From the NCBI GenBank assembly GCA_017642885.1, contig JAEPOM010000007.1, forward strand, positions 62,418 to 126,417: a DNA stretch of 64,000 nt, read 5' to 3'. The stretch comes from Henriciella sp. (lineage in GTDB: Bacteria; Pseudomonadota; Alphaproteobacteria; Caulobacterales; Hyphomonadaceae). A model generated the notes under the pieces. It worked only from the letters and a program-made list of their open reading frames with translations. It made no database searches and had not been told where the DNA came from. Shown one piece after another: positions 28,854 through 30,419 of this stretch. Made by a program: the position numbers and the translations under genes. The first letter of the stretch is position 1, and every line of letters starts with the position of its first letter.

Positions 28854-28895
28854 ACCTGCGCTCCGCCTGCTCCCCATTGCCAAATAGAGCATAGC

Positions 28896-29013
28896 GGCCT
28901 AAGGCAGCGCCAGATCTCAAGGAGTCGGCGATGCCAATGCGCGTCATCTGTTGCGTTTGTATCTGCGGCTAGGGCCTACCCGCCTTAGCCAGCCCTCGCC
29001 GTTCCCTTCTTTT
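28896..29013 (+). promoter_or_regulatory. Putative transcription attenuator upstream of cysS
   Basis: Four mutually pairing segments frame the Cys leader ORF: segment 1 at 28896-28905, segment 2 at 28966-28975 (CGGCTAGGGC), segment 3 at 28982-28990 (GCCTTAGCC) and segment 4 at 28992-29001 (GCCCTCGCCG). Segment 2 pairs with 3 as a 9-bp stem with one G-U and a 6-nt loop, or with 4 as 9 pairs plus one mismatch; segment 1 can pair with 3. Segment 4 is followed by TTCCCTTCTTTT. A ribosome stalled at the leader Cys codons (28949-28966) would cover segment 2 and block both hairpins. Transcriptional or translational control cannot be separated by eye. Confidence 0.6.
28931..28972 (+). CDS. Cys-rich leader peptide upstream of cysS
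   Basis: A 13-codon ORF (MPMRVICCVCICG, then TAG) with four Cys codons in its last seven codons. A perfect Shine-Dalgarno AAGGAG at 28919-28924 sits 6 nt before the ATG, better than any signal in front of cysS itself. It lies 43 nt upstream of the first cysS start. The layout (strong SD, short ORF, run of codons for the amino acid that the downstream gene charges, alternative hairpins overlapping the stop codon) is that of an amino-acid-specific ribosome-mediated attenuator. It is too short for routine gene callers. Confidence 0.8.
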   Translation: MPMRVICCVCICG

Positions 29014-29015
29014 AA

Positions 29016-30419
29016 ATGACAGATGAGCCTGACATGCCAATCCGCCTTTACGATACAATGGCCCGCGAAAAGCGTGCATTCAAACCGCAAGACCCGTCCC
29101 GGGTGACGATGTATGTCTGCGGCCCGACGGTTTATAATCGCGCCCATATCGGAAATTTCCGACCGGTCATCGTATTCGACACTTTGTTCCGCGTCCTGCG
29201 AAAAGCTTATGGCGACGACGCCGTCATCTATGCGCGCAACGTGACCGACATTGAAGACAAGATTATCGCGGCAAGCCAGGATAGCGGCGAGCCGATTGAA
29301 GCGATCACCCAGAAATTCGCCGCCATCTATGATGAAGATGCAGCAGCCGTGAATGCGCTGGCCCCGACCATCGTGCCCTGGGCAACCGAGCATGTCAGTG
29401 AGATGATTGAGATCATCGAAGCGCTAGAGCGCAAAGGCTACGCTTATGCGACCGAAGCGGGTGTGTTCTTCAATGTTCCGCAAATGGAAGACTATGGCCG
29501 TCTCTCCAAGCGCAAGCTGGATGACAATCAGGCGGGCGCGCGCGTGGATGTCGATCTTGGCAAACGGGACCCAGCCGATTTCGCGTTATGGAAGTTCGCC
29601 AAGCCGGGAGAGCCAGACGACGCGATCTGGGACAGCAAATGGGGGCGCGGACGTCCGGGCTGGCATATTGAATGCTCGGCCATGGCCGCGAAGCATCTTG
29701 GCAAGACGATAGACATTCATGGCGGCGGCATCGACCTTCAATTCCCGCACCATGAAAACGAAGTGGCGCAATCAGAATGCGCCCACGGTCAGACCATGGC
29801 GAACTATTGGATGCACAATGGTTTCCTGGATATGGCCGGCGAGAAAATGTCGAAATCACTCGGCAATGTTGTCCTGCTGAACGACCTGCTCAAGGATTGG
29901 GACGGGGAAGTGATCCGCTTTGCCATGCTGAGCGGGCACTATCGCGCACCCCTCGATTGGACCGGCGATCTGCTGGAACAGGCTAAAGCCACCCTGAACC
30001 GTATCTATGGCGCGCTGCGCCGGGTCTGGGACGCGGATGGCGGCGATGGCGTCGATAATGGCGTCATGGATGCGCTCAGCGATGACCTCAACACACCGAT
30101 CGCGCTCGCCGAGCTATCGCGCCTCGCGGGCGAAGCGAACGGGGCAGCCGACCGCAAGGATGATGCGTCCATGGCTGAGGCCAAAGCCAATCTCCTGGCC
30201 GCTGGCGCTCTGCTCGGCCTGCTGACGCGCACGCCAGCAGAATGGGAACAGGGCGGCGACCAGGACGAAAATGCAAGGATCGACGCCTTGGTGGCGGCGC
30301 GCATTCAAGCGCGTGCGGATAAGGATTGGGCCGAAGCTGACCGCATCCGAGACCAACTCGCCGCCGAGGGCATCGAGATTATGGACAGCGCTGGAGGCGC
30401 CACCTGGCGACGGGTTTAG
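29016..30419 (+). CDS. cysS: Cysteinyl-tRNA synthetase
   Basis: Class Ia synthetase charging tRNA-Cys. 467 residues. The zinc-site Cys is in 'VCGPTVY' (C35) with 'HIECSAMA' and 'HHENE' completing it; 'HIGN' (44-47) is the HIGH motif and 'KMSKSLGN' the KMSKS loop. The anticodon-binding helices are C-terminal. The start at 29016 has no clear ribosome site; ATG at 29034 (MPIRLYD) is an alternative. A Cys-rich leader ORF and alternative hairpins lie immediately upstream. Confidence 0.97.
   Translation: MTDEPDMPIRLYDTMAREKRAFKPQDPSRVTMYVCGPTVYNRAHIGNFRPVIVFDTLFRVLRKAYGDDAVIYARNVTDIEDKIIAASQDSGEPIEAITQKFAAIYDEDAAAVNALAPTIVPWATEHVSEMIEIIEALERKGYAYATEAGVFFNVPQMEDYGRLSKRKLDDNQAGARVDVDLGKRDPADFALWKFAKPGEPDDAIWDSKWGRGRPGWHIECSAMAAKHLGKTIDIHGGGIDLQFPHHENEVAQSECAHGQTMANYWMHNGFLDMAGEKMSKSLGNVVLLNDLLKDWDGEVIRFAMLSGHYRAPLDWTGDLLEQAKATLNRIYGALRRVWDADGGDGVDNGVMDALSDDLNTPIALAELSRLAGEANGAADRKDDASMAEAKANLLAAGALLGLLTRTPAEWEQGGDQDENARIDALVAARIQARADKDWAEADRIRDQLAAEGIEIMDSAGGATWRRV

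Follow-up and report, generated by a model that had tools for sequence, protein, structure and literature searches.

A cysteine-codon leader ORF upstream of cysS in Henriciella-like Hyphomonadaceae and its possible role in sensing charged tRNA-Cys

Analysis of a 64-kb stretch of DNA (hereafter the window) from a Henriciella-like member of the Hyphomonadaceae (G000 among our genomes) reveals a short leader ORF, dense in cysteine codons, upstream of cysS, the gene for cysteinyl-tRNA synthetase. We consider it highly probable that this leader senses the level of charged tRNA-Cys and acts on cysS by one route or another. When the window's genus and Hyphomonas are taken together, a Cys-rich ORF precedes cysS in 48 of 66 genomes. 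The arrangement presents a testable case in which an alphaproteobacterial tRNA synthetase gene would sense its own product by means of a short upstream ORF (uORF).

A conserved cysteine-codon ORF before cysS

The leader ORF of the window (MPMRVICCVCICG*; 28931-28972, plus strand) comprises 13 codons, as read directly and from relatives. It is preceded by a Shine-Dalgarno (SD) sequence AAGGAG at 28919-28924 on the same strand, 6 nt from the ATG, and carries Cys codons at positions 7, 8, 10 and 12 (plus strand, beginning at 28949, 28952, 28958 and 28964, and thus spanning 28949-28966). Direct reading therefore bears out the ORF, the AAGGAG spacing and the four Cys codons reported in a preliminary description of this DNA. 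The alignment of upstream regions from relatives that it had proposed points the same way: in the window and seven relatives AGGAG is invariant (8/8), Cys 7, 8 and 10 are retained in all eight sequences and Cys 12 in seven. On both strands of the window this is the sole SD-preceded ORF of 6-40 codons with four Cys codons within seven, and a first-order Markov model predicts 0.1 such ORFs on average; dropping the SD condition adds two further Cys-dense ORFs. The cysS gene itself occupies 29034-30419 (plus strand), its start being placed at 29034 from homologues. Because these favor 29034 rather than 29016, the U-rich run formerly described as lying directly before cysS, a pyrimidine-rich stretch (TTCCCTTCTTTT; 29002-29013, plus strand) that by eye is C/T-rich in the aligned relatives, in fact ends 20 nt upstream of the start.

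Our search of 105 family genomes recovered cysS in 102; we read the upstream DNA of 90 (30 loci and 60 stretches), scoring as a leader any ORF of 6-45 codons with its stop 40-115 nt before cysS and at least three Cys among its last eight codons. In the window's genus (g1) 14 of 28 genomes pass, in Hyphomonas (g4) 34 of 38 and in the other eight genera one of 24, so that the ORF and its Cys codons, whose lack of conservation would have spoken against the preliminary description, do recur in relatives. If two Cys suffice, the counts become 17/28, 34/38 and 1/24; even this loosest rule leaves 11 of the 28 g1 genomes and 4 of the 38 Hyphomonas genomes with no leader. In the same 66 genomes Markov shuffles produced 0.45 leaders on average and 2 at most, the next-best amino acid under the rule was Arg with 11, and there were no Cys leaders on the reverse strand or in the interval 150-300 nt upstream. 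Of 40 loci taken from four more families in the order, three showed an ORF with two Cys in its last eight codons less than 200 nt away, none of them convincing.

In all 34 passing Hyphomonas leaders (32 distinct sequences) an in-frame ATG stands precisely 16 codons upstream of the stop, in a search that allowed ORFs of 9-18 codons with the ATG count extended to 40, and all 34 have Cys at codons 14 and 15. Beyond the conserved start codon and these two cysteines, the peptide has Cys or Arg at codon 16 and varies over codons 2-13. In the window's genus 12 of 17 leaders comprise 13 codons, with the starts as chosen by us. One near-identical relative of the window, labeled Hyphomonas sp. (L021), groups with the window's genus. 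In another genome (G050) a Hyphomonas-type leader, L149, is ended by a stop after a single Cys codon, whereas the sister loci L142 and L148 show no such interruption; the stop reflects either genuine decay or an error of sequencing. Two genomes of the family hold second, more distant copies of cysS, at G017:C129:1679-3052 (54% identity) and G091:C29:15367-16779 (38%).

Promoter and RNA pairings of the leader region

A predicted promoter precedes the leader on the plus strand, with a -35 box TTGCCA (28877-28882; invariant in 8/8) and a -10 box TAAGGC (28900-28905). In all eight aligned sequences TTGCCA, the 17-nt spacing and CCTAAG are invariant, and the spacer is mostly variable. A promoter test that took in 32 of the 51 leader loci found TTGnnn-N17-TAnnnn before 26, whereas shuffles averaged 1.4 with a maximum of 4; the remaining loci carry TTG and TA differently spaced, and in five the same boxes can be read in another register, with N17 before CATA. 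When the start codon is chosen in view of the promoter, one is flagged in 45 of 51 loci, including 34/34 in Hyphomonas. Because the Hyphomonas ATG sits 6-7 nt past the -10 box (16 of 18 promoter-tested loci), these leader mRNAs may well be leaderless; at two Hyphomonas loci, L114 and L120, it is an in-frame ATG six nt upstream of the one used that lies at this distance. In the six clade H loci of the test the ATG is 23-25 nt from the -10 box and an SD sequence is present. Six loci (L123, L127, L129, L132, L139 and L154) combine a Cys leader with a -10-like box (TAGAAG, TAGAAC or TAAAAG; noted by eye) some 6 nt ahead of the cysS ATG, which might be a second, leaderless cysS promoter that bypasses the leader; the window clade has AGATGAGC there.

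In the window, transcription would start near 28912 (28911-28914). This bears on the three mutually exclusive pairings proposed earlier: the four segments can pair as claimed, but since the conserved -10 box, 17 nt from the -35 box, lies inside segment 1 (28896-28905), that segment is probably absent from the RNA and the switch built on it fails. Of the seven 1:3 pairs tested, six are kept in 8/8 and the seventh in 7/8, and both strands barely vary: the change in L083 still allows a G-T pair, and that in L088 disrupts pairing. With the -10 box in segment 1 and covariation absent, we rejected the 1:3 pairing as an RNA element.

Segments 2 and 3 pair perfectly at the stop codon as a local hairpin with a loop of 6 nt (GGCTAGGGC-CTACCC-GCCTTAGCC; 28967-28990, plus strand), which begins directly after the last Cys codon. 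Its nine pairs are kept in 8/8, three being altered on one side only. In addition, RNAalifold on the eight sequences joins 28941-28952 (GC.TCATCTGTT, plus strand), which overlaps Cys codons 7-8, to 29018-29028 (GACAGATGAGC, plus strand), which covers the SD-like sequence of cysS. In this long-range helix, P1, 96.6% of cells are paired, versus 29.5-43.2% when the partner is slid. One P1 pair is changed from G-C to A-U on both sides in two of the eight sequences (L086 and L088), perhaps by a single event. Shuffling the 3' letters matches the covariation score in 16 of 500 trials, the count of pairs changed on both sides in 234 and that of pair types in all 500, and sliding the partner by +1 gives equal double changes (2 cells) and a covariation score of 0.123 versus 0.097 unslid; covariation in P1 is weak support. 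Where the preliminary description had suggested a search for covarying stems, the hairpin shows one-sided changes only and P1 covaries weakly.

Seven of the eight sequences have a perfect complementary run of 8-9 nt, each at 0.005-0.045 relative to shuffles, these values not being independent; the exception, L085, lacks the long run and loses two pairs of the 8-bp P1 core. Outside clade H few complementary runs stand above the shuffles, only L093 (12 nt), L111 (9 nt) and L109 (at 0.05) doing so among 42 other loci. At L093, a Hyphomonas locus, the 12-nt perfect match joins TGTTCGTGAGTG at the start of the leader ORF to CACTCACGAACA about 30 nt before cysS. The partly masked L089 retains AGATGAG, and its readable bases hold no full P1 partner. 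In the window's own sequence P1 is marginal, its best pair reaching a probability of 0.08. We claim no family-wide fold because RNAalifold on 33 Hyphomonas leaders returned almost no common structure (-1.4 kcal/mol).

A possible mode of control and its alternatives

The ORF, its Cys codons, the promoter-like boxes, the hairpin and the complementarity, all present in the sequence and in its relatives, can be accommodated in a model in which we infer ribosome stalling, the direction of the on/off response and opening of the cysS ribosome-binding site (RBS) as its output. Ribosomes would translate the 13-codon leader of the nascent transcript and, when charged tRNA-Cys is scarce, would stall at Cys codons 7-8, where their footprint would cover the 5' strand of P1 (28941-28952). 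With P1 blocked, the cysS ribosome-binding region at 29018-29028 would be open, the stop-codon hairpin would form and cysS would be on. Given ample charged tRNA-Cys, the ribosome would reach the stop codon and melt the hairpin; P1, no longer blocked, could then shut the cysS start region and turn the gene down. Assuming that a ribosome shields 15 nt before and 13 nt after its A-site codon, one at codon 7 or 8 would cover the 5' strand of P1 and spare the stop-codon hairpin, and one at the stop would cover the 5' arm of the hairpin and release P1, an order that stalling as the on state would require if P1 closes the start region. The earlier proposal of stalling at Cys codons gains support as far as a Cys sensor acting on cysS is concerned, since the ORF is conserved along with its length and Cys codons; the switch through segment 1 does not.

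We regard RBS opening as a plausible though somewhat doubtful route, and have marked it down slightly because the +1 slide of the P1 partner scores no worse on covariation. Over 32 loci, opening the cysS start region is cheaper with the ribosome at the first Cys codon than at the stop, by a mean of -0.8 kcal/mol (control 0.06, sd of control means 0.29); for eight Henriciella loci (L081, L084-L088, L091 and L092) the difference is -1.8, with a control of 0.2 and an sd of 0.57. In the window sequence the cost barely changes (5.6 free, 5.7 stalled, 6.3 at the stop), and two g1b loci have the opposite sign (L139 +7.1, L154 +3.0). Leader-RBS duplexes are stronger in native than in exchanged combinations (-18.7 vs -16.0; 2.65% of exchanges are as low); in Hy3 the native ones are weaker than the foreign ones both ways, and in H2 one way. 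Stalling lowers the opening cost by more than 1 kcal/mol in only 11 of 32 loci and raises it as much in 4, and we accordingly rejected RBS opening as a rule for all clades and kept it for clade H.

Transcription attenuation is a doubtful alternative to RBS opening. Here segment 2 paired with segment 4 (GCCCTCGCCG; 28992-29001, plus strand) would, with the pyrimidine run, make a terminator on read-through, and the 2:3 hairpin would serve as antiterminator during a stall at codons 7-8. Both segments 3 and 4 are available to segment 2 as partners, the run is C/T-rich in relatives, the closing helix of a comparable Hyphomicrobiales leader (see below) ends directly before TCTTTTCTC, and a terminator is inferred for the Rhodobacterales uORFC-8-2 in the passages on that motif in Brewer et al. 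(2021, PMC8632094). Yet only seven of the ten proposed 2:4 pairs are kept in 8/8, as against nine of nine for 2:3; one position is mismatched in all eight and the outer two pairs hold in 2/8 and 6/8, while its competitor is a perfect local hairpin. That hairpin is separated from the U-run, the pyrimidine run has no adjacent perfect stem, and a simple scan, covering loops of up to 8 nt, finds no intrinsic terminator there. Moreover, six clade H loci folded with the ribosome at the stop form nothing stable downstream (-1.9 to -4.9 kcal/mol), and by eye the U-run is not seen in Hyphomonas clades Hy2 to Hy5.

Termination by Rho, which would load on a C-rich, G-poor stretch once leader translation has ended and be kept off by a stalled ribosome and the hairpin, strikes us as improbable. 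The region 28973-29015 holds 19 C versus 7 G, and the C/G ratio of 1.92 from leader stop to cysS is matched by 1.5% of the window's 65-nt stretches; Rho has also been suggested for actinobacterial Cys leaders in the relevant part of an earlier study (PMC1262725). Such composition is nevertheless unspecific: the 32 leader loci have a median of 1.47, other families of the order 1.29, and genera lacking a Cys leader average from 0.93 (g3) to 1.61 (g10) and 2.04 (g7), where one of six g7 genomes does pass the leader rule, and g1 and g4, which contain leader loci, are no control. That the Cys-rich micropeptide acts by itself, through metal or redox binding, is very unlikely. The Cys-dense peptide is conserved, and its Hyphomicrobiales version keeps ICGICREI beyond the Cys codons; against this, codons 2-13 vary in Hyphomonas, and Cys positions differ between clades, all leader loci having been selected via cysS. 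A chance ORF is scarcely credible: short ORFs are common, but the conserved Cys codons, length and promoter, the rarity of such ORFs in the window and the shuffle controls contradict it.

In the window's own genome, about 500 nt of same-strand upstream DNA was read for one cysE (L171) and six PALP-family genes (L176-L181), all over the cut-off, and no ORF with three Cys in seven codons precedes any of them. Such an ORF does occur about 150 nt upstream of the open frame of L173, a weak cysE-like match below the cut-off.

Known systems and leaders beyond the family

The trp, his, leu and pheST attenuators, the last of a synthetase operon, carry their regulatory codons in a leader peptide, these codons, unlike those of the window leader, not being Cys; in Alphaproteobacteria no T-box is known to act on cysS. 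The preliminary description supposed that a Cys leader before an alphaproteobacterial cysS might be undescribed, which is wrong for the kind: the account of uORFC-8-2 in Brewer et al. (2021, PMC8632094) gives 145 examples, exclusively before cysS in Rhodobacterales, with Cys codons usually at 14 and 15, two stems of which the first holds the Cys codons, a terminator stem with a 3' U run, and a stalled ribosome presumed to raise cysS. The window leader resembles uORFC-8-2, as there described, in its place before cysS, AUG start, shortness and tandem Cys codons (7-8). It differs in having 13 codons with Cys at 7, 8, 10 and 12 rather than 14-15, no clear terminator and different helices; since that account says "usually", the positions do not alone exclude membership. 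We therefore file it as a divergent, SD-led variant of the uORFC-8-2 kind, not a proven member. The Hyphomonas leaders, which look leaderless where the window ORF is SD-led, match that description closely, with Cys 14 and 15 in 34/34. Published examples may include Hyphomonas, because the Hyphomonadaceae, which NCBI taxonomy today places in Hyphomonadales, were, we take it, counted in Rhodobacterales around 2021.

Canestrari and colleagues reportedly found in 2020 that mycobacterial Cys-codon uORFs respond to cysteine supply by translational attenuation, the stalled ribosome freeing the RBS of the next gene. Such polycysteine ORFs share with the leaders described here a Cys-codon uORF and the leaderless start that Hyphomonas appears to have, and differ in belonging to Actinobacteria and to cysteine metabolism operons, with no known relation in sequence; they are mentioned, as leaderless short ORFs, in citing passages of PMC9031893, PMC9094748 and PMC13236596. 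Leaders of actinobacterial cys operons, in the relevant part of a 2005 study (PMC1262725), likewise have runs of Cys codons near the stop, stand before cysteine genes and show no obvious terminator, and differ in not preceding cysS and in coming from Mycobacterium, Propionibacterium and Bifidobacterium. Rfam 15 gives zero matches in the window at gathering scores, and a search of 18 loci that have or may have a leader, admitting E values up to 1, gives a single chance match to a microRNA model (E 0.89). The open-access literature consulted mentions no Hyphomicrobiales or Henriciella cysS leader, which does not prove absence; the SD-led Henriciella variant and the 16-codon leader described next look new.

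In 24 of 60 cysS loci of other families, largely Hyphomicrobiales, there is an ORF with the consensus MNGFLAICGICREIxS (L027, L029, L030, L033, L037, L043, L044, L046, L049, L050, L053, L056-L058, L061-L064, L069, L072-L075 and L077), 16 codons long in 22 of the 24 under a search pattern that admits 15-19. Carriers include Bradyrhizobium, Tardiphaga, Nitrobacter, Pseudolabrys, Methylocystis and others, some labeled just Alphaproteobacteria or Proteobacteria. TTGAC(G/C) stands 29-31 nt before the leader ATG in 24/24 (a count without shuffle control), comparable to the 29-30 nt from promoter to ATG in most promoter-tested Hyphomonas loci, and the ORF is probably a leaderless Cys leader. An alignment of 22 of these leaders gives a three-stem fold, with the Cys codons in one stem and the stop codon in another; double changes are absent, and it is in the consensus that the closing helix reaches the run mentioned above.

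Within the Hyphomonas, Henriciella and Hyphomicrobiales leaders, length and promoter spacing are constant per lineage and the RNA helices differ. We tentatively entertain the idea that a leaderless 16-codon Cys leader with fixed promoter-ATG spacing is an old control of cysS across several alphaproteobacterial orders (Hyphomonas, Hyphomicrobiales and Rhodobacterales), which the Henriciella lineage would have rebuilt as an SD-led 13-codon form, its output moving from termination to RBS opening. If true, one sensor would have been joined to exchanged output platforms. The parallel leaders of these lineages would let one ask how an attenuator swaps its output yet retains its sensor.

A model of the Hyphomicrobiales leaders (R1), run on 143 class-wide genomes with E up to 0.05, had matches in 5, in one (G313) just before cysS and in the other four elsewhere by position. 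We also scanned 40 upstream regions of the class-wide set, belonging to the stronger cysS hits in 142 genomes. A lenient rule, two Cys within the final 10 codons, holds for 10 of them. Two of these 10, L244 (G327) and L258 (G225) from one family, have uORFs ending in CCCA* and WCCA*, with stops 88 and 109 nt before cysS, and these too look like leaders.
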